64,000 nt of DNA from an uncultured Pelagibacteraceae bacterium (GCA_902591535.1 CACJBA010000001.1:62001-126000); one strand, 5' to 3'. Shown: positions 18,095 through 45,226, numbered from the stretch's first letter. Numbers and translations: made by a program. Notes: a model not told the origin generated them from the sequence alone.

Positions 18095-18123
18095 TTGACA
18101 TGAATTTTATTTTTATTTATCAT
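18095..18123 (+). promoter_or_regulatory. Sigma70-type promoter (copy A)
   Basis: Exact TTGACA (18095-18100), 17-nt spacer, TATCAT (18118-18123); predicted start lies just before the pseudoknot. Confidence 0.7.
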
Positions 18124-18131
18124 TAATTATT

Positions 18132-18170
18132 CAAGTCTGGTTGTGCTGACTTGTAAATCAAGGGACAACA
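18132..18170 (+). ncRNA. Candidate 5'-leader RNA element, copy A: H-type pseudoknot
   Basis: CAAGTC-TGGTTGTGCT-GACTTG hairpin; loop GTTGT (18140-18144) pairs with downstream ACAAC (18165-18169). Near-identical copy at 25118-25156. Confidence 0.7.
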
Positions 18171-18179
18171 TACATTTTT

Positions 18180-19622
18180 ATGAAAAATTTTTATAGAAAA
18201 GTTGCTTTTGGTTTGAAACCTGATGAAAAAATTCCATCAGACCCATTGGTTTGGGCTACTTCGCAGATAACAGATAAAATTCCAGAGTTTTCATTTAAAG
18301 GTAAAATTTATTCTGAAGAAGAGTTAAGAAAGCATTATAGAGAGTATGTTTATCAAGACAGAAAAGTATTAAGAAAAAAGTTTAAAAAAGATAAAATGGG
18401 CTATAAAGCTGCTAAGAACTTATTAAAAGACAGTACAGGTCAAAAGTTCTGGAAAAATTTAGAAATAGCCATCAGACATAAAGAGGCAACTCAAGGAAAT
18501 CATCCTGTACTTGCAAAATTTTGGTACTTTTGGACAAATCATTTCACGATAAGTGATAAAGATTTTCTAGCAGATTATTCAACTGGTGGTTATCAAAGAG
18601 AGACAATTAGAGCTAATTTAAATAAATCGTTCGAGGAGCTAGCATATGAAGCAACTATAGCTTGGGCAATGATTCATCATTTAGATAATGCAGAAAATGT
18701 TGGCCCTAAATCTGAAGATGCAAGAGCTGAGTGGAGGAGAAGAAAAAAAAGACCAGCAACAATAAATGAAAATCATGCAAGAGAATTATTAGAGCTACAT
18801 ACTGTTTCACCTAATTCAGGATATACTCAAGAAAATATTACAGAGTTAGCTTTAATTATGACGGGTTGGGCACCGGATGACAAATACTGGAAAACAAAAC
18901 TCGAAACTGCAGATGTAAGATTTCAAAGCAAATATCACGAACCAGGAAAAAAAATATTTTGGGGAAAAGAGTTTCCCAAAGGAAAAAAAGGCCTACGAGC
19001 TGCAGTTAATTTTTTAGTAAATCATCCCTCTTGTAGAGAGTTTATTGCTTATAAACTTTGTAGATATTTGATTACAGATTATCCAACCAAAGAAATGACT
19101 GATCCAATTATAAAGGCATGGCAAAAGAGCGATGGTTTTTTACCTGAGGTGCATAAAGCAGCAATTGAAGTTGCTTTTAAATTTAATGACAAATATTCGA
19201 AATTTCAAAATCCAGAAAATTGGTGGCTGCAGATGAGCAGAATGACGGATGCAAAGTGGCCACCTAAAGATGAAAGATTTGATACATATAGACTCGGTGG
19301 GGGACCAGATCCTTATCAAGCAAAACCAAGTTGGTTCATGGAGGATATAGGTCATCATCCATATTTATCAAAGCAACCAAATGGTTATTCTGATTTAGCA
19401 GAAGACTGGATGTCACCAGAACTAATTATCAGAAGACTTATATATGCTAGACAAGGCTATATTAATTTAAAATCTGATAACAAAAACAATGAATTTTTCC
19501 AAAAGGTAGTGGATAAAAATTTTGATAATCCAGATAAAATAATGAAACTTTTAAATCAAAATGAGAAACCAATTGATAGACATATACTGTTATTTAACCT
19601 ACCGGAGGTATTTAGAGCATGA
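18180..19622 (+). CDS. DUF1800 family protein
   Basis: LAKFWYFWTNHFTIS, NENHARELLELHTV, GYTQENITELALIMTGW: typical DUF1800; followed by DUF1501 partner. Confidence 0.88.
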   Translation: MKNFYRKVAFGLKPDEKIPSDPLVWATSQITDKIPEFSFKGKIYSEEELRKHYREYVYQDRKVLRKKFKKDKMGYKAAKNLLKDSTGQKFWKNLEIAIRHKEATQGNHPVLAKFWYFWTNHFTISDKDFLADYSTGGYQRETIRANLNKSFEELAYEATIAWAMIHHLDNAENVGPKSEDARAEWRRRKKRPATINENHARELLELHTVSPNSGYTQENITELALIMTGWAPDDKYWKTKLETADVRFQSKYHEPGKKIFWGKEFPKGKKGLRAAVNFLVNHPSCREFIAYKLCRYLITDYPTKEMTDPIIKAWQKSDGFLPEVHKAAIEVAFKFNDKYSKFQNPENWWLQMSRMTDAKWPPKDERFDTYRLGGGPDPYQAKPSWFMEDIGHHPYLSKQPNGYSDLAEDWMSPELIIRRLIYARQGYINLKSDNKNNEFFQKVVDKNFDNPDKIMKLLNQNEKPIDRHILLFNLPEVFRA

Positions 19623-20770
19623 AGATAACCAGAAGAAATTTTTTAAAAGGTTCTTTGGCGACTTTATTTTTAGCTGGATCGGGAATTCCCGTATATTCCT
19701 CTAATAAAGTTAAAAAAAACCTTGTTGTAATTATGCTTAGAGGTGGAATGGATGCCCTATGTGCTGTCCCTGTGATTGGTGATAAAAATTTTGAAAAGCG
19801 TAGAAAACAATTAATTTTAGATAATACTATAAAGTTAAATTCTGATTTTGCACTTCATCCAATTTTAGAAGGTTTTCATGAGCTATGGAAAGAAAAAAAA
19901 GGTGCCATTGTTCATGCAACAAACATTCCCTATACAGGCAGATCTCATTTTGATGGTCAAAATTTAATGGAGTCTGGAGGTAAAGTTCCCTATCAAGTCA
20001 AGACTGGATGGCTGGGCAGAGGAATGAAAATTGCTGGCCTAAAACAAGAGGGTTTAGCATTAGCTTTACCAATGCCATTAATTTTAAGAGGGGTTCCAAA
20101 AAATAACAATTATTTTCCAACGAAAGGTAAACTTCCTACAGATAAAGTCCTTGCTTTACTTAAAGATGTTTACAATGAAAAATCTGAAGATGAACTGATT
20201 GGTATGCTTGAGATAATAAAATCAAGACCTAAAGAGAGATCTTATGCAGCAGATGATTTATATTCTTTAGCAAATGAAGCGGGTACCTTAATGAAAGAAC
20301 CAGATGGACCAAGAGTAGCAGTTTTTGAAGTTGGAGGATTTGATACACATGCGGCGCAAGGAGGAGTTCATGGTACACATTCTGATTGTTTGAAAGATAT
20401 GGATCTTATATTTGCAACATTAAAGAAGAGACTTAAAGAAGAATTTGATAATACACTTATAGTTACTCTTACTGAGTTTGGTAGAACAATAAAACAAAAT
20501 AGCGGTTTGGGAACTGAGCATGGGTATGGCTCAGCTATATTTATGGGCGGAGGTCTTTTAAAGAAAAATCAAGTTTTTGCTGATTGGCCAGGCTTAAAGA
20601 AGAAAGAATTATTTGAGGGAAGAGATTTAAATTCTACAATTGATTCAAGATCAATCTATGCATCTGCTATGTCAACGGTATTTGATGTCGATTTTACAAG
20701 AATACAAAATGATGTTTTCTTCGGAGATCAATTACAAAACTATTCAGATAAATTATTTAAAACGATATGA
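19619..20770 (+). CDS. DUF1501 family Tat-exported protein
   Basis: Tat-type signal KITRRNFLKGSLATLFLAGSG; VVIMLRGGMDALCAVPVIGD, TEFGRTIKQNSGLGTEHGYGSAIFMGG. Confidence 0.9.
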   Translation: MKITRRNFLKGSLATLFLAGSGIPVYSSNKVKKNLVVIMLRGGMDALCAVPVIGDKNFEKRRKQLILDNTIKLNSDFALHPILEGFHELWKEKKGAIVHATNIPYTGRSHFDGQNLMESGGKVPYQVKTGWLGRGMKIAGLKQEGLALALPMPLILRGVPKNNNYFPTKGKLPTDKVLALLKDVYNEKSEDELIGMLEIIKSRPKERSYAADDLYSLANEAGTLMKEPDGPRVAVFEVGGFDTHAAQGGVHGTHSDCLKDMDLIFATLKKRLKEEFDNTLIVTLTEFGRTIKQNSGLGTEHGYGSAIFMGGGLLKKNQVFADWPGLKKKELFEGRDLNSTIDSRSIYASAMSTVFDVDFTRIQNDVFFGDQLQNYSDKLFKTI

Positions 20771-20892
20771 TAGATACTCGTTTTAATTGAAATAAAATTT
20801 AAAACTAATCTTTTGCTCGTTTATTAAAGCTTTTTATTCGTCAAAATAAGATATAGGATTTAACCATGAAAGGTTTAGCCAGGTGAAGCATT

Positions 20893-20909
20893 TGGCAGAA
20901 GATCTGCCA
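20893..20909 (+). other. Perfect 7-bp hairpin near the 5' end of the Lys-rich gene
   Basis: TGGCAGA-AGA-TCTGCCA. Confidence 0.5.
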
Positions 20910-20914
20910 CAACA

Positions 20915-21571
20915 ATAGTAAAATTAATAATTGTTTTTTTTCTACTAATTTTTTTTACATCTAATTTAGAAGCAGCAAAGGAAGAAAAAGAAAAAGATTG
21001 TACTTATTGTAAGAAGTACGAAAAGTTAAAGGATTGGCCTTTGAGTGAAAGGCCAGAAGCGTTTATATACGAAGAAATTGTATACCCAGAGGGAATGTTT
21101 CATGAAAGCTTAATTAAAAGCAAACAAAAGCAAGGTGAAGCAGGTAGAAAAGTATATCAAAGATTTGTGAAAGGAAAAGGTGAGTTAAACAAATACCAAC
21201 ATCATATGATTAGAGACATGGCCTATTTCGAGGCTTTGTTTAATGAAATGCTTAATGACAAAAATGCAAGTGTTGAAACATTAGAGGGCATTAAAAAAGG
21301 CAGAGAAGCCATGAGGATGAGCTTAAATATTTCACCAAAAGCTAAATCATCAGAGGCAGTTCTTAAATTTTGGGCAACAGGTAAAATGCTTTATGCAGCA
21401 CATAAAAAAAATAAAAAGAAAAAGAAAAAGAAAGCAAAAAAATTAACTCCAGAAATAGCTGAGCGTGCTGCAGTATTAGCTAATCTGAAAAAACAAATTG
21501 CAACAGCAAAAGTAAATGCTCAAAGAGCTGCTACTATTACAGCTCAAGAAAAAATAGAGGAAGGAAATTAA
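20915..21571 (+). CDS. Lys-rich secreted protein; true start uncertain
   Basis: Track begins at TTG 21041, but the frame continues upstream as (I/M)VKLIIVFFLLIFFTSNLEAAKEEKEKDCTYCKKYEKLKDWPLSERPEA, a convincing signal peptide with no ATG/GTG/TTG start. Confidence 0.55.
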   Translation: MVKLIIVFFLLIFFTSNLEAAKEEKEKDCTYCKKYEKLKDWPLSERPEAFIYEEIVYPEGMFHESLIKSKQKQGEAGRKVYQRFVKGKGELNKYQHHMIRDMAYFEALFNEMLNDKNASVETLEGIKKGREAMRMSLNISPKAKSSEAVLKFWATGKMLYAAHKKNKKKKKKKAKKLTPEIAERAAVLANLKKQIATAKVNAQRAATITAQEKIEEGN

Positions 21572-21576
21572 TTACT

Positions 21577-24036
21577 TTGAAGATTATAATTAAAACTTTT
21601 TTAATATTTTTATTATTTCTAAACTTAACTGTTAAAGCAAATGATATAGCTGCTATGTCTGGAATTTCAGAAGCAGCAGGAAACTCAGCTCAAGCTGCAG
21701 CAGATCAATTAGCTGCAGATGCAGGTAAAGTTGCAGAAAATATTTCAGGCGCAACAGAAGCTTTAGGACAAGCAAAAAGTGATATAGGTAAAGCCTTGGA
21801 TGTATCCATTGCTCAGGCTGAAACTGCAATGCAATTTGCTACAGAAAGTTTAGCAAAAGGCGATATCACTTCTGCAGTACAGGCAATGTCATTAGTTGAA
21901 GGTGTTACTGATATGGCCTTAGGCGCTATTCCAGATCCTACAGCTTTGGATATGACTGGAATTGATTTTGCAAATGATTTTTCTCCAGAAGAGATGGCAG
22001 CCTTGTCTAGTATAGCTGGCCAAATGGGTGCTGGAAAAGTTGTATCGTTACAAAAAATGGCTGGGCAGATGAATGCTTTAGGTGCTGTTGGATTTGATGC
22101 TAAAGGAATGATGGGAACTTTAGATGCTCAAGGAATAGGTATGGGTTCTGCCATGGAAGGATTATCAAAATCAGGTTTAGTAGATATGGAGGCCATAACT
22201 GGTTCAGCTAATTTCGATATGGCAAATTTTAATCCAGGAAATTTTGCTTCTATGAATGTTGCAGAGATGGGAATGAATCCAGTAATGATGGCAGGAGCTT
22301 TGAATGCATTGCCAGTTGGTGCCGCAACTGCTGCTCTAGAAACGTTAGCAGCTAATCCTGATACGATGGGTCAAATGAGTCAATCTATGACTGGTGCAAT
22401 AGTAGCTACCATGAGTGCCAAAGGCATGGGTGAAGAAATGATGAAGAGCATGGAGACAAGTATTGGAATGGAAGGCATGACAGATATGGCTAAAGGTATG
22501 GGTGGTATAGAGGGAATGCAGGAAATTGGAAAAGCAATGCAAGAGATGGGAATGGATCAAATGGCTCAAACATTGCAAACAGCATTCGCCAATCCAGAAG
22601 TTGGAATTACCTCAGCTATGTCAGGAACAGTTGGAATGATAAGCCAAGCAATTTCAGGAAAAGCACCAAAAGAACAGAATGCCATTCAAAAAGGAATGGG
22701 GATGAAAGATTCTTTTGCAAACAATATGTCAGCGCCTGAAGCTATAGAGATGCCAGAAAATGTAAGTGAGTCTGGAATGATGATGGGTGCAATGATCATG
22801 GCCAAACCATCTTTAGCAGGAGGATTGCCTGGTGCAATGGCGCCCCCTGAAGGAATGACAGCTTTAGGTATGGGACAAGTTTTAGATCCTACTAATCCGT
22901 CAGGTGGTATGATGATGGGAGGAGTTATGGAAAACATGTCAAAAGCTGATATGGGTGAAGCAATGGCAAACATGACTGGAATGGAAGTTGGAGAAATGGA
23001 TAAATTAGGAATGGCTGATATGGCAATGCAAACAGGTTTAACTCCAGGAATGGTAGCAAGCATGGGTGCAGCAGGAATTGCAGGAATGGATGTATCGACA
23101 ATTATGTCAACTAACGTTGCTGGACTTGGCAGTAAAGCTATTAAAGGAGTTGCAGAAATGGCTAAGTCTGGAAATTTATCTGCTGGTCAAATGGGAGATA
23201 TGATGGAAGTTGGATTAGTCAACCAAGGAACAATGGCTGCTATGGGAGCTGAGGGAATGAAAGGATTAAGCGGCGCTATGGGAATGGAAGGTGGAGACAT
23301 GGGCCTTGCAGCGATGAGTGGTGGAATGGTTGGTATGGGAGAAATGAATTTAGATGCACAAATGAATCCAGAAATGGCAGCGAGTATGGGTTTAGTAGGA
23401 AGTCCTGAGGGTGCAAAATTAGGAGATATAATGGGTGGAGCACCTGAAGGGTTAGAAGGTGGTATGAAAGGTGGAATGAATTTAGGACAAGTCTCTGCTG
23501 CAATGGGAACAGGAGTTGACCCAGGAGCAGCAATTGGAAACGTAGCAGGTGCTGCAATGGCAGCTGATGGAGCAGGAGGATTAGCAGGTGCTGCAATGGG
23601 ATCAGCTATGGCTGCTCAAGGAGCAGCAGCGTCAGCTATGGGTTCTCATGCAATGGGAGCAGCAATGGGAATGGAAGGCATGGGCGAAGGTGCAATGGGT
23701 AAAGCCATGGGCGGCGCTATGCAAGAAGGAATGTCAGGAACAATGGGTGGCGCTATGGCAGGTGCAATGGCTGGAGGTCCAGCTGGCCCAGGCGATATGG
23801 GTCCAATGGGTGATATGGGTCCAATGGGCGGTCCAGATGGTGGTCCAATGGGTGATATGGGTCCAATGGGCGGCGACATGGGCGGCATGGGTGGTGCTAT
23901 GGGAGATATTGGTGGTGCTGTTGAAGGAGCAATGGGAGGTCCAGGTGCTCCGGGTGATCCAGGTCCAGGCCAACCAGGAGCTCCTCCTCCAGGTGACCCA
24001 GGTCCAAATCCAGGTGGTCCAGGAGATCCTAAGTAA
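21577..24036 (+). CDS. Large secreted Met/Gly/Ala-rich low-complexity protein with Gly-Pro-rich C-terminus
   Basis: TTG start, signal peptide (IIIKTFLIFLLFLNLTVKA), long MxxMG-type body, C-terminal GDMGPMG repeats and PGDPGPGQPGAPPPGDPGPNPGGPGDPK. Confidence 0.85.
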   Translation: MKIIIKTFLIFLLFLNLTVKANDIAAMSGISEAAGNSAQAAADQLAADAGKVAENISGATEALGQAKSDIGKALDVSIAQAETAMQFATESLAKGDITSAVQAMSLVEGVTDMALGAIPDPTALDMTGIDFANDFSPEEMAALSSIAGQMGAGKVVSLQKMAGQMNALGAVGFDAKGMMGTLDAQGIGMGSAMEGLSKSGLVDMEAITGSANFDMANFNPGNFASMNVAEMGMNPVMMAGALNALPVGAATAALETLAANPDTMGQMSQSMTGAIVATMSAKGMGEEMMKSMETSIGMEGMTDMAKGMGGIEGMQEIGKAMQEMGMDQMAQTLQTAFANPEVGITSAMSGTVGMISQAISGKAPKEQNAIQKGMGMKDSFANNMSAPEAIEMPENVSESGMMMGAMIMAKPSLAGGLPGAMAPPEGMTALGMGQVLDPTNPSGGMMMGGVMENMSKADMGEAMANMTGMEVGEMDKLGMADMAMQTGLTPGMVASMGAAGIAGMDVSTIMSTNVAGLGSKAIKGVAEMAKSGNLSAGQMGDMMEVGLVNQGTMAAMGAEGMKGLSGAMGMEGGDMGLAAMSGGMVGMGEMNLDAQMNPEMAASMGLVGSPEGAKLGDIMGGAPEGLEGGMKGGMNLGQVSAAMGTGVDPGAAIGNVAGAAMAADGAGGLAGAAMGSAMAAQGAAASAMGSHAMGAAMGMEGMGEGAMGKAMGGAMQEGMSGTMGGAMAGAMAGGPAGPGDMGPMGDMGPMGGPDGGPMGDMGPMGGDMGGMGGAMGDIGGAVEGAMGGPGAPGDPGPGQPGAPPPGDPGPNPGGPGDPK
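23800..23873 (+). repeat. Internal direct repeat of 32 bp with 42-bp offset
   Basis: GGTCCAATGGGTGATATGGGTCCAATGGGCGG at 23800-23831 and 23842-23873. Confidence 0.85.
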
Positions 24037-24050
24037 AAATAAAAATAAAA

Positions 24051-25061
24051 ATGTTTATTAGATTTATTTTATTCATTGTTTTTTTTAATCTGGTTTCAAA
24101 TTCATCTTTTGCAAACTCTAGATTTGGAGAGTTAACTGAAATGCGAGATAAAAAAATGAGAGGTAAAGATAATCAATGGGTTAGACCTCATCCAGGACCT
24201 TTTATATGGAACCACATTGAAAAAGAAAAAGGAAAGTTTACTTGGGAAGAGGCAGACAAATATGTTGTTTATGCTCAAGAACACAATCAAACAATTTTAG
24301 CTACTATCTGGCCTCACGCTAATTGGGAGCAAAAATCTTGTAAAAGAAAAAAAGCAAGAAGTCCCTTTGGAAAAAAATTTACCAAATATCTTAGCAAACC
24401 CTGTTCAATGGATGACTATAAAAACTTTCTTTTACAATTAGTTGATCGTTATGACGGAGATGGTTCAAATGATATGCCCGGCCTAACTAAACCAATTATA
24501 TACTGGGATATAATGAACGAGCCTGAGTTTAAAATGTTTTTCAAAGGAAGTGAGGAAGACTTTGTAGAAATATTTAATTTTTCATCTAAGGTAATTAAGG
24601 AAAAACAGCCAGATGCAGTCATTGTTATGGCTGGTGCTGCAGGAATGTTTCCAGAAAGTAAAAAATTTTGGAAGTCTGCTTTGCCAAAAATCAAAGATCA
24701 TTTTGATATCGCAAATATTCACCATATAAGTGGTCCTGATGGTCAGTGTGATAGAGAACTATGGGTGGATGAATTTGCTGCCTTATTAAAAAGTGTAGAT
24801 GTAAATAAACCTATTTGGTTAACTGAAGCTATGACTTGTGGTGCTCCTGTAAAAGCTTGGGTAAAAGCTTTTTTAAATGGAGCTGAGCTGATTATCGATG
24901 TTGGTGTAAATGCTCCAGGAAAAAAAATGAGCAAAAAAGGTAGAAAGAAATTAAATGAATTCATTGCTGAATATGATGGATTTACATCAATAAAAAGTAT
25001 TTCAAAAAAACAAGTAGAATTTACTTACAGCGATGGATCTAAAAAAATATTAGATTTTTAA
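24051..25061 (+). CDS. Secreted clan GH-A-like glycoside hydrolase
   Basis: Signal peptide; IIYWDIMNEPEF (NEP acid/base motif) and KPIWLTEAM (candidate nucleophile Glu). Confidence 0.75.
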   Translation: MFIRFILFIVFFNLVSNSSFANSRFGELTEMRDKKMRGKDNQWVRPHPGPFIWNHIEKEKGKFTWEEADKYVVYAQEHNQTILATIWPHANWEQKSCKRKKARSPFGKKFTKYLSKPCSMDDYKNFLLQLVDRYDGDGSNDMPGLTKPIIYWDIMNEPEFKMFFKGSEEDFVEIFNFSSKVIKEKQPDAVIVMAGAAGMFPESKKFWKSALPKIKDHFDIANIHHISGPDGQCDRELWVDEFAALLKSVDVNKPIWLTEAMTCGAPVKAWVKAFLNGAELIIDVGVNAPGKKMSKKGRKKLNEFIAEYDGFTSIKSISKKQVEFTYSDGSKKILDF

Positions 25062-25081
25062 ATTACCATCAATTCTTACAA

Positions 25082-25109
25082 TTGACATCACAATCACAAT
25101 AGTTAATAT
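25082..25109 (+). promoter_or_regulatory. Sigma70-type promoter (copy B)
   Basis: TTGACA (25082-25087), 16-nt spacer, TAATAT (25104-25109), just upstream of pseudoknot copy B. Confidence 0.7.
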
Positions 25110-25117
25110 TAATTTTC

Positions 25118-25156
25118 AAAGTCTGGTTGTGCTGACTTTTAAATCAAGGGACAACA
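25118..25156 (+). ncRNA. Candidate 5'-leader RNA element, copy B: H-type pseudoknot
   Basis: AAAGTC-TGGTTGTGCT-GACTTT hairpin with loop GTTGT pairing to ACAAC (25151-25155); differs from copy A at the outer pair (C-G versus A-T). Confidence 0.7.
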
Positions 25157-25178: not shown

Positions 25179-25226
25179 ATGAAAAAATTGTTTGTTGTAA
25201 TTTCATTAATTTTTCTTCTAATATAA
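25179..25226 (+). CDS. 15-aa micro-ORF resembling a bare signal peptide
   Basis: MKKLFVVISLIFLLI* between pseudoknot copy B and the serine hydrolase gene. Confidence 0.35.
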   Translation: MKKLFVVISLIFLLI

Positions 25227-25236
25227 AAAAAGGTAA

Positions 25237-26679
25237 ATGAAAAAAATTTTAATAATTATATTTTTATTTTTATTTTCAAATACATCTTACGCAAATGATT
25301 CAAGAATTGACGAGTTTAACAATTGGTTATTAGACAACGGTCATACACAGTATTTAAATATTGAACAAAAAGCAGGATGCAAAAAATTAATTCAAAAACA
25401 TGGTTTAAAAGTACCAAAGGTTGGTCTTATTGATGAACCAAAGGTTAAAACTAACGAGTGGTTCTGGCTTGAATGTCATAAAGTTCAAGCCACAAATAAT
25501 CTAAAAATAAAATTTTTTAAATCACCAGAAATTCCTTGGGGCACTAATCCAAATAAAGATACTTTGCTGTATTATTTATTTAGATACATTGTTACAGAAG
25601 ATGGATTTGACCGTGCTGGCTCTAAAGGATCAAAAAATCCTTATAAATTTAAAACCGAATTAAGAGATGACAAAATTTCCAAATACATCAAAAAACATAT
25701 GCAGAAAACAGCATTACTTAGTTACTTACTTTACGAAGATGGTAAAATTACTATAGATGAGATATCGCCAAAAAATCGTTTTGGAATTTTGTTTGATAAT
25801 AATACTCAGTTCACCAGCATGTCTGTTGGAAAAAGCATTGTATCCTATGTGACAGGTCATGCAATTTGTAAAGGATATATAAATGGTGTTGACCATAGAT
25901 TAAATGATTGGCCTCTATTAGAAAATACACTTTTTTATGATCAAAAATTAATAAATCTTCTAAATATGGCTGCTGGTCATCAAAAATATGCAGATAAGGA
26001 TTTAAAAACAAATAAATACAGAAAAAATGCGAACGCAAATACTGTTGAATTTCACTTGCAGAAGGGAGTTTTTAAAGACTCAAAAAAGGTAAAAAGCAAA
26101 TATCAATACACTAATTTTATAACCAATATTTTAATAAACTATGTTTGGTTCAAATCTGAAGGTCAATTTCAAAATCTTTTAGATGAAATATTTATAGACA
26201 AAGCAAAAGTTAAAAATGATGTGTGGTTTTTAAAAATGAATGACAGAACTATTAAATCCAATAATAGAAATAATAAAATTTTAAAAGAGTATAAAGTAAG
26301 AGATGAAGATGGTCCTTTAAGATATTCATTCAATGCTACAAGGTATGATTATCTGAGAATAGCTAAAGCAATGCTAGATGATTGGCAAAATGATACTTGT
26401 GTTGGAAAGTATTTAAAAAATATTCATGAAAGAAGAATTCCAAAAAATGATAAGTGGAAAGATGACAAAAGTCCAGGTTTAAATCCTAAATCATATGCTG
26501 GGCAGTTCTACGCAGACTATTCAGGAATGCGTGGAAGGAATATAATGGGAATGGTTGGTAAAGGTGGACAAAGTATTATGATTGATTTTGATAAAGGTAG
26601 AATAAACGTAATTAATACTATTCACATAGATTATAATTGGAAAAAAATAGCTCATGCAGTTATTAAAAAAGGTAAATGA
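25237..26679 (+). CDS. Secreted serine hydrolase, beta-lactamase/DD-peptidase-like fold
   Basis: Signal peptide MKKILIIIFLFLFSNTSYA; SVGK (SxxK) and YTN (YxN) motifs. Confidence 0.75.
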   Translation: MKKILIIIFLFLFSNTSYANDSRIDEFNNWLLDNGHTQYLNIEQKAGCKKLIQKHGLKVPKVGLIDEPKVKTNEWFWLECHKVQATNNLKIKFFKSPEIPWGTNPNKDTLLYYLFRYIVTEDGFDRAGSKGSKNPYKFKTELRDDKISKYIKKHMQKTALLSYLLYEDGKITIDEISPKNRFGILFDNNTQFTSMSVGKSIVSYVTGHAICKGYINGVDHRLNDWPLLENTLFYDQKLINLLNMAAGHQKYADKDLKTNKYRKNANANTVEFHLQKGVFKDSKKVKSKYQYTNFITNILINYVWFKSEGQFQNLLDEIFIDKAKVKNDVWFLKMNDRTIKSNNRNNKILKEYKVRDEDGPLRYSFNATRYDYLRIAKAMLDDWQNDTCVGKYLKNIHERRIPKNDKWKDDKSPGLNPKSYAGQFYADYSGMRGRNIMGMVGKGGQSIMIDFDKGRINVINTIHIDYNWKKIAHAVIKKGK

Positions 26680-27605
26680 AAAAAGTACTATTAGTAATTT
26701 TATCCTTTTTCTTATTTTTTTCTGTTCAAGCCAAAGAATGGAAAAATAAAAATAAGTGGAAAATTTCTTGCGGCGTAGTTAATGATGAGTCTCTCATTGT
26801 AAATGGAAAAAGTAAAAAATATTCAAAAAACGAATTCAAATTAGTAGATGTGGTTTTCAAGCTTGATAAAGGAGATATAGGTAGTTGTCCTACAGACAAG
26901 AAACCAGCAGGTGGGTACCCTTATTCTGGTAGACAAGAAATAACTCATAAACTTCCAATAGGACATACTATTTTTGAAACTGATATTACAATTGATGGTG
27001 CTCCATCAGCTAGATCAACTATATTTCAAATACACGATGGTAGAAATAAAGGTGCTCCTCCCTCGTGGATAGGTATAGATGGTGGCTGGAAAATTATTCA
27101 AAAATTTCCCAAAGGAGAATGTTCTTCAGAAAATTGTAAAATGTTAGAATTCATTACTTTAGAAACTGGTAAAACTTATAGATTTAAGGCAGAGGTAGAT
27201 TATAAAAAAAAAGCCAAATTTTTATCTGTTAAATATTATCTTGATGATAAATTTATTCTTCATCATTATGACGTCCCACTATTAACTAAAAAGACCGATG
27301 GACCTTACGGACCAACCAAACCTTATATTAAAATTGGTATCTATAGAATTGGAGATACTGGTACAACAACTTATGCATATAAGAATTTAGTTATAAAAAA
27401 TAAAAAAAAATCTTCATTTGAAAAAGTTGATAGTTCAAAAGGCGCAACTAAATTTTTTGTTGTTGTTTCAAGAAAATCAGATCCTTCCGTTCAATTTCGA
27501 TATGAAGATGAGCTTAAAGGAAAAGCTAGAACACAAGCTTTAAAAAAATGTTTTACTGCAGGACATGACGATTGTGAAGTTTCTTTGATTGGTGTCACGA
27601 AATAA
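26676..27605 (+). CDS. Exported ConA-like (jelly-roll) polysaccharide-lyase-like protein 1
   Basis: Signal peptide; GRQE, FQIHDG, YIKIGIYRIG motifs reminiscent of PL7/heparinase-like lyases. Confidence 0.65.
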   Translation: MKKVLLVILSFFLFFSVQAKEWKNKNKWKISCGVVNDESLIVNGKSKKYSKNEFKLVDVVFKLDKGDIGSCPTDKKPAGGYPYSGRQEITHKLPIGHTIFETDITIDGAPSARSTIFQIHDGRNKGAPPSWIGIDGGWKIIQKFPKGECSSENCKMLEFITLETGKTYRFKAEVDYKKKAKFLSVKYYLDDKFILHHYDVPLLTKKTDGPYGPTKPYIKIGIYRIGDTGTTTYAYKNLVIKNKKKSSFEKVDSSKGATKFFVVVSRKSDPSVQFRYEDELKGKARTQALKKCFTAGHDDCEVSLIGVTK

Positions 27606-27609
27606 TTAA

Positions 27610-28536
27610 ATGAGAAAAATTGTAATTTTATTTACTATTTTTATTCTATTTATTTTTAACAATGTTTTTGCTGAAAAGATAAATGTTAAAAATGGAGTAA
27701 AGTTACCAAAAGACGTTGCTAGAGGATATGAAAATCCCTGGGAATTATTCTGTACATGGACCGAAGATGGAAAATGTATGACACCTAAATACGCTTTACA
27801 AATTGTAAATAAAAAAGACAACCATCCAGTAAGGCTTGGGAAAAAATCTATTAGAATGGAATTAAGAAAAGGAGATTGTCATCAAAAAAGAAAAGGTTCT
27901 TATAATGATTGTAAAGCTACTCCTCCCGCAGAAAGACATGAGCTTACAAACAGAAATGATATTTTGGGAAAGAAATGGCATACATATTCAATTTATTTAC
28001 CAAAAGAAAATCCAAAAGTAATCTCTGAATGGATTACTATGGGTCAATTTCATTCATTAAATGTATCTTACCCACCTGTAAATTTGGATCTTGAGCATGA
28101 TCAATTTCTTTTAGTGACAAGGTTTTTATGTATTCATCCAAAAAAAATTGGAAAATCATGTTCTTCTGATGATCCTGAAAATAGAAGAATAAAAATTCTA
28201 AACAGTGATGAATTATTTGGAAAATGGAATGACTTTATTTTTAGTGCTAATTGGACCAATAATGAAAAAAAGGGATATTTTAAATTTTGGTTAAATGGAA
28301 AACTAATTTATCATTTTAATGGAAGAACTATTGGACCTGAAGCAGATGATGCAGCAATTCATCAGTTAGGAATATATAGAGGTGCGGCTAAAAATTCTGG
28401 AGACGCAAATCATGTTGTTTATTATGATGAAATTAAAACGGCTTCGTCTTGTAAAAAAATTAACTTAAAAAAACTTGGCTATTCTTGTAAAGATATAGAA
28501 AATCAAAAACTTGAAACAATACATAAAATTAAATGA
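27610..28536 (+). CDS. Exported polysaccharide-lyase-like protein 2 (heparin lyase I-like)
   Basis: Signal peptide; RMELRKGD, AERHEL, GQFHSLN, LGIYRG motifs, multiple Cys. Confidence 0.7.
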   Translation: MRKIVILFTIFILFIFNNVFAEKINVKNGVKLPKDVARGYENPWELFCTWTEDGKCMTPKYALQIVNKKDNHPVRLGKKSIRMELRKGDCHQKRKGSYNDCKATPPAERHELTNRNDILGKKWHTYSIYLPKENPKVISEWITMGQFHSLNVSYPPVNLDLEHDQFLLVTRFLCIHPKKIGKSCSSDDPENRRIKILNSDELFGKWNDFIFSANWTNNEKKGYFKFWLNGKLIYHFNGRTIGPEADDAAIHQLGIYRGAAKNSGDANHVVYYDEIKTASSCKKINLKKLGYSCKDIENQKLETIHKIK

Positions 28537-28546
28537 ATAAAATTCA

Positions 28547-29554
28547 ATGAAAAAAATTTTAGTAATACTGATTATGAGCTTATTATTAAGCTCCAATGCT
28601 TTTGCCAATAAGTGGCATATTAAAATGAAGAAAAAAGAAAAAAAAGATTTTGCCCATTATGTTCTTAAAGCACAGTCAGATAATAAAATGGTATTTAACC
28701 TTAGAAACATCAAAAATTCTAAAATGTATAAGTTTTTTGATAAGTTTGAGGATCGTATGGGAGTTGCTGAAAAAGGAGTTGAGTTTAATTTAAAATATTC
28801 ATTTGAAGGCCATAAACAAGATTGGTCTAGATGGGGAAAACCCGGACATGCACAAAGATTCCAGATAATGGAGCCCTATAAGGAAACTACCAAAAAAAAT
28901 AAAACGAAATGGTATAGGGTTGGTTATTTTTTTCCAGAAGATGTGAGAATTGATAAACATACAATATCTTTATTTGATTTTAAAAAATTATATGGAAAAG
29001 GTGAGAAAACTCATGATGCAGCTCTCAATATTATAAATAATAGATTTAATTGGGTATTTAATTCACCAAATTACACTGCTCATAAAAATGAGACGGGTGA
29101 GGAATATTTATATTTCGATACCTATTTTGTAAATCTTGATCACTATTTTTCGCCATTGAAAGGTAAATGGGTCAATGTCTTAGTAAACGCAAAATGGGCT
29201 GAAAACGGATTTTTACACTTGTGGATAGATGGAAAACTTAGATCAAGCTACTATGGTGATACTTTAGGTGGTGCGTCAAGTGTAAGATTTAAATTTGGAC
29301 CTTATAGACACCACATGAATCAGGCAACGGAAGCTGGTATTGAAATTCCTGATGTTAAAATTAAATATTCTAATGTTGGTAAAGCTGATAATTGTGATGA
29401 TTTGTGGAGTGGTTGTTCTGAAATAGTAAGTCAATTAAATGGAAAATCCCAGCTTAATGGAGTAAGGATGGTTGCATTTTGTAAAACAGCTCCTCAATCA
29501 GACGGATCTTCTTGTAAAAATTTAGGCTATCCATCTAATCAAAGACCTTTTTGA
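28547..29554 (+). CDS. Exported polysaccharide-lyase-like protein 3
   Basis: Signal peptide MKKILVILIMSLLLSSNAFA; LHLWIDGKLRSSYYGD, VRFKFGPYRHH motifs parallel the two upstream genes. Confidence 0.65.
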   Translation: MKKILVILIMSLLLSSNAFANKWHIKMKKKEKKDFAHYVLKAQSDNKMVFNLRNIKNSKMYKFFDKFEDRMGVAEKGVEFNLKYSFEGHKQDWSRWGKPGHAQRFQIMEPYKETTKKNKTKWYRVGYFFPEDVRIDKHTISLFDFKKLYGKGEKTHDAALNIINNRFNWVFNSPNYTAHKNETGEEYLYFDTYFVNLDHYFSPLKGKWVNVLVNAKWAENGFLHLWIDGKLRSSYYGDTLGGASSVRFKFGPYRHHMNQATEAGIEIPDVKIKYSNVGKADNCDDLWSGCSEIVSQLNGKSQLNGVRMVAFCKTAPQSDGSSCKNLGYPSNQRPF

Positions 29555-29590: not shown

Positions 29591-31174
29591 ATGGGAAAAG
29601 TAAAAAACATACTTTTTATAATGGCTGATCAATTGAGATGGGATTATCTATCTTGTTATGGTCATCCTCATTTAAAAACTCCTAATATTGACAGTTTAGC
29701 AAAAAAAGGAGTACAGTTCGATTCTGCTTTTGTCCAATCACCAGTGTGTGGCCCTTCAAGAGCATCTTATTACACTGGTAGAACAGTTTTTAGTCATGGC
29801 TCTACATGGAACCAAGTTCCGCTTCCAATTGGAGAATTAACTATTGGAGACTATTTACGACAATCAGGAATAAGAACTGGTGTAGTTGGTAAAACACACA
29901 TGAGACCAGATTTAGATGGTATGAGCAGACTTGGTATTACTAAAGATACTGAAATTGGATTGATAGTTAGCGAACCCGGGTTTGATCCTTATGAAAGAGA
30001 TGATGGCCTTCATCCAAATAATCAAATTAAAAATTCTAAAAAAACTTTATCTTACAATGAATGGTTAAATAAACTTGGATATGATGGGCCTAATCCATGG
30101 AATGATTGGGCAAATTCTGCTGAAGGTGAAAATGGTGAAATACTAAGTGGTTGGCGACTAAGAAATTCGAATAAACCTGCAAGAATTCCTGAAGAGCATT
30201 CCGAAACAGCTTTCATGACCAATCGAGCAATGGAATTTATAGAAGAAAGTAAACATAAACCATGGTTTTTACATTTATCTTATATCAAACCACATTGGCC
30301 TTATATGGCACCAGCCCCTTATCATAATATGTATTCTGCTAATGAATTTTATCCAGTTCATAGAAATGATGCTGAACGAAATAATGATCACCCAGTTTAT
30401 AAAGCATTTATGGAAAATAGTATTTCCAAAACTTTTTCAAAAGATGAAGTAAGAAATACAGTTCTTGCTGGATATATGGGTTTGATAAAACAAATTGATG
30501 ACAATTTAGGAAGGTTATTTAAATTCTTAGAAAGTTCAGGTCATATGGATGATACGATGATTATATTTACTTCAGATCATGGAGACTACCAAGGTGATCA
30601 TTGGTTAGGCGAAAAAGAATTATTTCATGAGCAGTCAGTTAGAGTTCCAATGATTATTTATGATCCAAGTGATTATGCAAATAAAACTCGAGGCACAAAA
30701 GAACAAAGATTTATAGAAGCCATCGATTTACTACCAACTTTTTTGGATGCAGTAGAAAGTCCGGCAAGCAAACATAGATTAGAAGGTAATTCATTAATGC
30801 CATTATTAAAAGGGGAGAGTACTAAAAATTGGAAAGAATTTGTTTTTAGTGAAATAGATTATGCATTTAATGAAGCTAGAAAAATTTTGAACATAGGAGC
30901 CTCAGATGCAAGAGCCTTTATGATAAGAAATAATAATTGGAAGTATATTTATTACAAAGGATTTGAACCACAGTTGTTTGATTTAAAAAATGATCCAGAC
31001 GAATTTAATGATTTAGGAAAATCTGAAAAACATTCAAAGATTAGAGAAGAAATGAAAGAATTACTTCTGAAAAGAATTATAGATAGAAAAAATAGAGTTG
31101 CAGCTACTGATGAGTTTGTAACTAAAGAAAGAGACTATACCAAAGATGATGGTATTATGATTGGTGTTTGGTAA
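29591..31174 (+). CDS. Sulfatase (alkaline phosphatase superfamily), cytoplasmic
   Basis: FIMADQLRWDYLSCYG, CGPSRAS (C-x-P-S-R formylglycine site), FTSDHGDYQGDH; no signal peptide. Confidence 0.9.
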   Translation: MGKVKNILFIMADQLRWDYLSCYGHPHLKTPNIDSLAKKGVQFDSAFVQSPVCGPSRASYYTGRTVFSHGSTWNQVPLPIGELTIGDYLRQSGIRTGVVGKTHMRPDLDGMSRLGITKDTEIGLIVSEPGFDPYERDDGLHPNNQIKNSKKTLSYNEWLNKLGYDGPNPWNDWANSAEGENGEILSGWRLRNSNKPARIPEEHSETAFMTNRAMEFIEESKHKPWFLHLSYIKPHWPYMAPAPYHNMYSANEFYPVHRNDAERNNDHPVYKAFMENSISKTFSKDEVRNTVLAGYMGLIKQIDDNLGRLFKFLESSGHMDDTMIIFTSDHGDYQGDHWLGEKELFHEQSVRVPMIIYDPSDYANKTRGTKEQRFIEAIDLLPTFLDAVESPASKHRLEGNSLMPLLKGESTKNWKEFVFSEIDYAFNEARKILNIGASDARAFMIRNNNWKYIYYKGFEPQLFDLKNDPDEFNDLGKSEKHSKIREEMKELLLKRIIDRKNRVAATDEFVTKERDYTKDDGIMIGVW

Positions 31175-39678: not shown

Positions 39679-39984
39679 ATGAAGCCAGGTGAAGTAATTA
39701 CAAAAAACGAGGAAATAGAATTAAATAAAGACTCTAAAGTTACTAAGATAAAAATTTCTAATTCTGGAGATAGACCTGTACAAGTTGGAAGCCATTATCA
39801 TTTTTTTGAAACAAATGAGTATTTAGTTTTTGACAGGGAATTATCATATGGAAAAAGATTAAATATACCTTCAGGAACTGCTGTAAGATTTGAGCCAGGT
39901 CAATCTAAAGATGTTGAGCTTATAGAAATAAATGGATCAAAAAAAATATACGGGTTCAATAAGAAAGTTATGGGGAAATTATAA
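39679..39984 (+). CDS. ureB: Urease beta subunit
   Basis: [31 protein letters not shown]. Confidence 0.96.
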
Positions 39985-41690
39985 TGGCCAAAATTTCTAG
40001 AGCAGCTTATGCGGATATGTATGGGCCTACAACAGGAGACAAAGTAAGGCTCGCAGATACTGACTTATATATTGAGGTTGAAAACGATCTAACAACTTAT
40101 GGTGAAGAGGTAAAGTTTGGTGGTGGAAAAGTAATTAGAGATGGGATGGGTCAATCTCAAATTAGTAGAAAAAAAGGAGCTGCAGATACAGTTATAACTA
40201 ATGCTTTAATTGTTGATGTAAATGGAATTTATAAAGCTGATGTTGGTTTAAAGGATGGAAAAATAATTGAAATTGGTAAAGCTGGAAATCCAGACACTCA
40301 ATCTGAAGTAAATATTATTATTGGTCCAGGAACAGAGATAATTGCAGGTGAAGGAAAAATTTTAACAGCAGGGGGTTTTGATAGTCATATTCATTATATA
40401 TGCCCCCAACAAATTGATGATGCTTTACATTCAGGTATCACGACTATGCTCGGAGGAGGTACTGGACCTGCTCATGGTACACTTGCAACAACTTGTACGC
40501 CGGGACCATGGCATATACAAAGAATGATCCAATCTGCTGATGGTTTTTCTATGAATTTAGCTTTTGCTGGGAAAGGAAATTCTTCATTACCAGAAGGTCT
40601 TGAGGAACAAATTCTAGCCGGAGCCTCAGCACTTAAACTACATGAGGATTGGGGAACCACTCCTGGAGCAATTGATAATTGTTTAAATATTGCTGACAAA
40701 AATGATGTACAAGTAATGATTCACACAGACACTTTAAATGAAAGTGGTTTTGTAGAAAATACCATCAAAGCAATTAACAAACGAACTATTCATGCTTTTC
40801 ATACAGAGGGTGCTGGCGGTGGACATGCACCAGATATAATTAAAGTTTGTGGAGAAGAGTATGTTATTCCTTCTTCAACAAATCCAACCAGACCATATAC
40901 AGTCAATACAATAGAAGAACATTTAGATATGTTAATGGTGTGTCACCATCTTGATAAATCAATTCCGGAGGATGTAGCATTTGCTGAAAGTAGAATAAGA
41001 AGAGAAACTATTGCAGCAGAAGATATCCTTCATGATATGGGTGCCTTTTCAATTATTGCATCAGATAGTCAGGCAATGGGAAGAGTAGGAGAAGTTATCA
41101 TTAGAACTTGGCAAACCGCACATAAAATGAAAGTTCAAAGAGGAAGTTTGCCAGAGGAAAAAGGGGATAATGATAATTTTAGAGTTAAGAGATATTTAGC
41201 AAAATACACAATTAATCCTGCAATTGCTCATGGAATTTCAAAACATATTGGTAGTATTGAAAAAAATAAACGTGCAGATTTAGTTCTGTGGGATCCAGCA
41301 TTCTTTGGTGCTAAACCAGAAATGATTTTAATAGGAGGAAGTATAGCTTGTGCGCAGATGGGAGACCCAAATGCATCAATTCCAACTCCACAGCCAGTAT
41401 ACACTAGACCAATGTTTTCATCATTTGGAACTTCTTTAGAGAAATCTTCAGTAATTTTCACAAGTAAACTAGCTCTTGAAAAGAATTCTTTAAAAGATGC
41501 AGGTATTAGAAAAGACTTATTACCTGTAGAAAACACAAGAGCCATTTCTAAAAAAGATATGATTTTAAACAACAAGTGTCCAAAAATTGAGGTAAATCCT
41601 GAGACATACGAGGTGAAAGCTGATGGTGAGATAATTACCTGTGAACCAGCTAAAGAACTTCCTTTGGCACAAAGATATTTTATGTTTTAG
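39984..41690 (+). CDS. ureC: Urease alpha subunit
   Basis: [40 protein letters not shown] (carbamylated Lys region). Confidence 0.98.
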
Positions 41691-45098: not shown

Positions 45099-45122
45099 GA
45101 GGTTGTATTTTGAGTCCGTAAT

Positions 45123-45159
45123 TGAATCAAAAGTGAATCAAAACGTGAACATCAAAAAC
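45123..45159 (+). repeat. Three imperfect tandem TGAATCAAAA-type repeats
   Basis: TGAATCAAAAG / TGAATCAAAACG / TGAACATCAAAAAC. Confidence 0.5.
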
Positions 45160-45226
45160 AACATTTGGTGGACATGTGGATAACTTTTACAATAAGTAGT
45201 CTTAAAGTGATTTAAAAAGGAAAATT

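Follow-up and report, generated by a model that had tools for sequence, protein, structure and literature searches.

The question raised by this locus is why two almost identical sequences of 39 nt stand ahead of two different sets of genes within one window (here the whole analysed stretch of 64,000 nt). Copy A (18132-18170, plus strand, CAAGTCTGGTTGTGCTGACTTGTAAATCAAGGGACAACA) and copy B (25118-25156, plus strand, AAAGTCTGGTTGTGCTGACTTTTAAATCAAGGGACAACA), both supported by the covariance model and by covariation, lie exactly where the original prediction had placed them. They differ only in columns 1 and 22, which form the outer pair of the first helix (P1) and read C-G in copy A and A-T in copy B, as expected from the compensatory change that had been claimed for two otherwise near-identical copies. 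The promoters proposed just 5' of them are represented by the promoter-like motifs TTGACA-N17-TATCAT (18095-18123, plus strand) and TTGACA-N16-TAATAT (25082-25109, plus strand), recognised by sequence, both of which end 8 nt 5' of the element. In the genome of origin (1.15 Mb, 79% complete) a search for the 20-nt hairpin that allowed up to three mismatches found these two sites and no others (reversed control 0), and the covariance model scores them at 70-71 bits, the next match having 14 bits or less. The evidence presented below indicates that the element is very probably a real, previously undescribed gene-control RNA.

The comparison of variants strongly supports an H-type pseudoknot with two crossing helices, because compensatory changes are found across both of them in host and phage variants. 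The fold consists of P1 (6-8 bp), a loop L1 with the sequence UG, a second helix P2 of up to 8 bp that follows P1 without a spacer, and an A-rich loop L3. In copy A these are P1 18132-18137/18148-18153, L1 18138-18139, P2 18140-18147/18162-18169 and L3 18154-18161; in copy B P1 25118-25123/25134-25139, L1 25124-25125, P2 25126-25133/25148-25155 and L3 25140-25147. Across leaders the element is 38-41 nt long, and among 33 distinct sequences L1 has 2 nt (3 in two phages) and L3 has 7-10 nt. The pseudoknot that had been predicted thus holds, whereas the restriction of P2 to GTTGT/ACAAC does not: the next three loop bases of the window copies stand opposite GGG and give a G.G mismatch, a C-G pair and a U.G pair. 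Pair 7 of P2 is C-G in hosts, U-A or C-G in phages and never unpaired, therefore P2 extends through the apparent loop. At pair 6 hosts have the G.G mismatch and many phages a C-G pair, which shows that a single mismatch is tolerated in the helix. The last pair is U.G in 30 of the 33 sequences.

Compensatory changes affect 8 of the 14 pairs and both helices, with 62 doubly changed cells against a mean of 17.5 and a maximum of 34 in shuffles. Pairs 1, 2, 5 and 6 of P1 and pairs 1, 2, 3 and 7 of P2 are clearly changed on both sides in the 33-sequence set, to which divergent phages were added by hand in an alignment made to fit the structure and biased in its favour. Pair 2 of P1, for example, occurs as A-U, C-G, U-A and G-C, and GUUGU/ACAAC of P2 is replaced by GUAGU/ACUAC in L071, AUUGU/ACAAU in phage HTVC131P and GUCGU/ACGAC in phage HTVC105P. 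Among the 32 aligned distinct sequences 92% of the cells are paired, and this value falls to 33-52% when the partner is slid by 1-3 columns. The covariation score of the same 32 sequences was reached by none of 500 shuffles, but the alignment rows are related and shuffles overstate the significance; the case is therefore carried by the sliding control and by the spread over the host and several phage groups.

In 20 of 49 leaders TTGAC is found 36-46 nt 5' of the element, against an expectation of about 1.5 (the 49 include orthologues and are not independent cases), which would put the element at about +1 to +11 relative to the predicted start. Its orientation is always that of the gene and it lies 5-81 nt 5' of the ATG. 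The leader sequences thus strongly suggest that the element is located between promoter and start codon, and the claim of a covarying pseudoknot at the mRNA start, common to several operons, is supported: both helices covary, and promoter and gene orientation agree with it at the level of sequence.

How far does the element reach beyond this genome? The search of SAR11 genomes that had been suggested with the original prediction was performed in 399 same-genus genomes with a first covariance model built from eight sequences, and gave 30 matches at 48-71 bits followed by a drop to 25 bits; the readable matches at that level were unrelated sequence. Given 30 strong copies and such a clear gap below them, the element is not a chance resemblance. 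A model with more variants detected it in 25 of 398 genomes sampled from the order, all of this genus, while in the genomes sampled from the class (296) and the phylum (160) it was found in the genome of origin alone, and 54 genomes of the sister family yielded no element. Pattern matches outside SAR11 (L011, L012, L019, L024, L027, L030) kept no P1 and were taken as chance. The carriers are Pelagibacteraceae, mostly single-cell genomes, and in an AlaRS tree of 60 genomes (a chosen sample, so the share of carriers there is not a frequency) the trait is distributed patchily: well supported branches require at least 7 changes, out of 11 in total. AlaRS identity between carriers and the genome of the window goes down to 77%, and the 39-nt element is still nearly unchanged. 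As for copies that break both P1 and the GTTGT/ACAAC pairing, the other copies keep both helices, and across loci the element is either intact or absent. The only clearly decayed copy (L090, at about 5000) lies behind a promoter-like sequence and has no intact gene 3' of it. At L076 (5001-5079, the same contig as L031 6771-6849) two identical tandem copies, one base apart, lie 5' of a gene for a TRAP substrate-binding protein.

The genes behind the two window copies are all on the plus strand. Copy A is followed by a DUF1800 gene (18180-19622, PF08811) and a DUF1501 gene (19619-20770, PF07394), copy B by the gene of a secreted protein of family F0 (25237-26679, family assigned by clustering), three polysaccharide-lyase-like genes (26676-29554, PF14099) and a sulfatase gene (29591-31174, PF00884 and PF16347). 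Profile matches thus bear out the predicted DUF1800-DUF1501 pair, lyase-like genes and sulfatase, whereas the predicted 'serine hydrolase', the F0 protein, has no Pfam, NCBIfam or PDB match, and the sole basis of its beta-lactamase-like label is an SxxK-like motif (SVGKS). Between copy B and the F0 gene there is a 15-codon ORF (25179-25226, plus strand, MKKLFVVISLIFLLI), read from the sequence, which may be either a leader peptide or the remnant of a signal peptide; it is also kept in L021 and L022, ahead of different genes.

Across host loci the F0 gene is the commonest first gene (17 of 35 clustered loci), followed by DUF1800 (8). Other first genes encode polysaccharide-lyase-like proteins, a trypsin-like lipoprotein (L082), a helix-turn-helix-like protein (L071) and an amino-acid ABC transporter (L087), and in L076 and L079 a TRAP substrate-binding protein is followed by a DapA-family protein and a fused oxidoreductase, which resembles hydroxyproline catabolism; several of these names come from reading the sequence and not from a profile match. 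The polysaccharide regulon that had been proposed is therefore too narrow. A polysaccharide-only regulon is contradicted by the transporter and catabolic operons, and the trypsin-like lipoprotein, the helix-turn-helix-like gene and a MarR-integrase operon of phages do not fit it either. We also rejected the notion that the element is intrinsic to the F0 gene, as F0 homologues in other genomes lack it and their upstream DNA is unrelated, and a plasmid origin, for which no match was found. Most host sites sit in one variable island that is flanked by two glycosyltransferase genes on one side and a umuCD-like pair on the other. In the window this accessory island spans about 18 kb to 43 kb between the same flanks, and its content of lyases, sulfatase, TRAP transporter and urease genes seems unusual for SAR11.

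The element is not confined to hosts. Three of 50,697 phage records, all of them pelagiphages, were matched by blastn, and tracing of the MarR-like gene together with further searches gave copies in HTVC022P, 304P, 201P, 131P, 105P, Jormungand, Ran, S35C6 and 134P as well as in 18 IMG/VR contigs. Where it was read, the gene 3' of the phage copy is MarR-like, usually at a spacing of 15-24 nt (in two contigs it encodes a 121-aa protein whose resemblance to the MarR-like proteins was judged by eye only), and in annotated phages the integrase gene comes after it. Seventeen leaders of pelagiphage-type MarR-integrase operons were read, and eight of them hold a clear and two a plausible copy directly 5' of the MarR-like gene. 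A search of these 17 leaders by geometry also found the knot, with different stem sequences, in HTVC120P, 309P and S46C10. The geometry score exceeded all 60 shuffles in HTVC022P, 201P, 105P, Jormungand, S35C6, 120P and 309P; that of HTVC131P was reached by one of 60, and here the covariance model, which matches the copy at E 6e-7, makes it certain, while the copies of HTVC134P (1/60) and S46C10 (2/60) are plausible only. No knot was found by this search in HTVC019P, 048P, 109P, 119P, 200P, Bylgja and S42C7; HTVC019P (L217) has a plain long hairpin (CATAGTGCATTCGAATGTACTGTG) in place of the pseudoknot 5' of its MarR gene. MarR and integrase have been proposed to form a lysis-lysogeny module of T7-like temperate phages (PMC10134795). 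The same knot, with stems rewritten by matching mutations, precedes phage genes thought to decide between lysis and lysogeny. Both genes are expressed early when HTVC022P infects HTCC1062, and this pair offers a cultured system for testing the element (PMC12753301).

One could argue that the element is no RNA but a DNA operator at +1 to +40, whose paired arms are the half-sites of a repressor such as a MarR-type regulator in phages. This is where operators typically lie, a MarR-like gene follows the phage copies that were read, and inverted repeats too change symmetrically. However, bases in P2 and in the outer part of P1 vary while pairing is kept, G-U pairs are used, the two repeats are interlocked in the geometry of a knot and L3 varies between 7 and 10 nt, all of which favours RNA over DNA. 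Additionally, none of 76 host genomes, of which 42 carry the element, yielded a homologue of the phage MarR (a search run without a positive control), and the helix-turn-helix-like gene that follows the element in L071 was not found in 150 of the 151 genomes searched; both were accordingly rejected as dedicated regulators. Thus we hold a DNA operator to be highly improbable.

As an RNA, the element could act as follows. The first 38-41 nt of the leader fold into the compact pseudoknot, which begins the mRNA or lies close to its 5' end and is followed directly by the ribosome-binding region of the first gene. How easily ribosomes start on this gene would most likely depend on whether the knot is folded; mRNA stability may be affected secondarily, and folding would answer to a cell state that is read directly or via a core host factor. 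The rather probable reading, in our view, is a leader RNA that regulates in cis, through translation initiation. We infer such control from two features of the leaders. In DUF1800 leaders AAGGGA inside the element is the only Shine-Dalgarno-like stretch, with long spacing to the ATG (in copy A it is at 18160-18165, plus strand, on the L3/P2 border), and in four divergent phages (HTVC120P, HTVC134P, HTVC309P and S46C10) P2 ends 0-2 nt 5' of AGGAG. Other leaders have a separate Shine-Dalgarno sequence 3' of the element. In many host leaders it lies well 3', with 18-38 nt between the element and the start codon, so direct occlusion cannot be the mechanism everywhere. A search 3' of the element revealed no alternative-pairing strand common to the leaders. 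The candidates were GTTTGTTGT (behind copy B), GTTGTC (L026) and, close to the ribosome-binding site, GAGCA or CAGCA; they were mostly no better than shuffles, and the best ones belong to single lineages.

The distance of the element from the promoter is near-constant and that from the start codon is variable, the genes behind it are heterogeneous with no common pathway, and many of them encode exported proteins. This would also fit a constitutive 5' stabiliser or ribosome-loading element, a knot that guards the mRNA end from decay and senses nothing. Yet the UG of L1, the adenines of L3 and the junctional U.G pair are conserved more tightly than stabilisation by itself would require, and a phage copy may sit inside a multi-gene transcript, just 3' of a small gene; we consider this explanation possible but doubtful. 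The same invariant UG and conserved L3 bases could be gripped by an RNA-binding protein or paired with a small RNA of the host, and a trans-acting factor of this kind would serve several operons through their copies at once. However, the observed stem changes are incompatible with stems that have to pair with a small RNA, and searches of the genome of origin revealed no second related site on either strand. A target site for a trans-acting factor is thus quite unlikely, although a grip by a protein is conceivable. Control of translation initiation by the leader itself remains our preferred reading, and what the knot would sense can be proposed tentatively at best: a new class of metabolite-sensing riboswitch, among the smallest known, might tie SAR11 accessory nutrient operons and the MarR-integrase lysogeny operon of temperate phages to the metabolic state of the host. 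The absence of a common pathway behind the element would be unusual for a riboswitch class.

Comparison with Rfam, likewise suggested at the outset, matched no family. The element has no match in Rfam 15 at the gathering score. With the threshold relaxed to E=10, only chance matches appeared for the two window copies, a divergent host variant and two copies from phages (among them Hatchet, E 0.63; manA-II, E 0.49; preQ1, E 2.6). PreQ1-I riboswitches are H-type pseudoknots of very small size whose A-rich tail lies 5' of the ribosome-binding site. The best score for preQ1-I (RF00522), 11.9 bits (E=2.6) in the one divergent host variant, is far below its gathering score of 39; P2 of the element reaches 8 bp, and no queuosine genes were seen. 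The leader pseudoknot of gene 32 in phages T2 and T4 is compact and stacked, lies at the mRNA start, has a very short L1, and regulates translation through binding of the gene's own protein. The element differs from this description, as no such own-protein binder is known for it. SAM-V (RF01826) and SAM-II (RF00521), also small H-type pseudoknots (PMC2704228, PMC6061858), are without Rfam match to the element even at E=10. SAM-V occupies Pelagibacter leaders near the start codon, its adenines face the minor groove of P1 and it acts on translation (PMC2704228, PMC6061858). Its P2 includes a third strand of 7 nt (G5-G11), and its connecting loop contains a P3 stem (PMC6061858); with an L1 of 2 nt and an L3 of 7-10 nt the element shows neither, and no methionine genes were seen behind it, unlike in the SAM-V context. 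Structured leader RNAs of P. ubique and HIMB5 are largely confined to SAR11 and marine metagenomes, and among the P. ubique motifs covered by the comparison SAM-V is the only one called a pseudoknot (PMC2704228, PMC6429828). A literature search of freely readable main texts turned up no such element, and an earlier description is possible.

Few groups of marine bacteria are as abundant as SAR11, which is often described as poor in gene regulation. A small leader RNA common to its accessory nutrient operons and to the lysogeny operon of widespread pelagiphages offers a concrete means of studying how both respond to conditions, and the strength of the covariation justifies the proposal of a new RNA family. 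The window also contains two other RNAs: the SAR11_0636 sRNA (RF01827) at 45101-45191 on the plus strand (90.4 bits), and the 5_ureB sRNA (RF02514) at 40141-40414 on the minus strand, antisense to the urease alpha gene (39984-41690).
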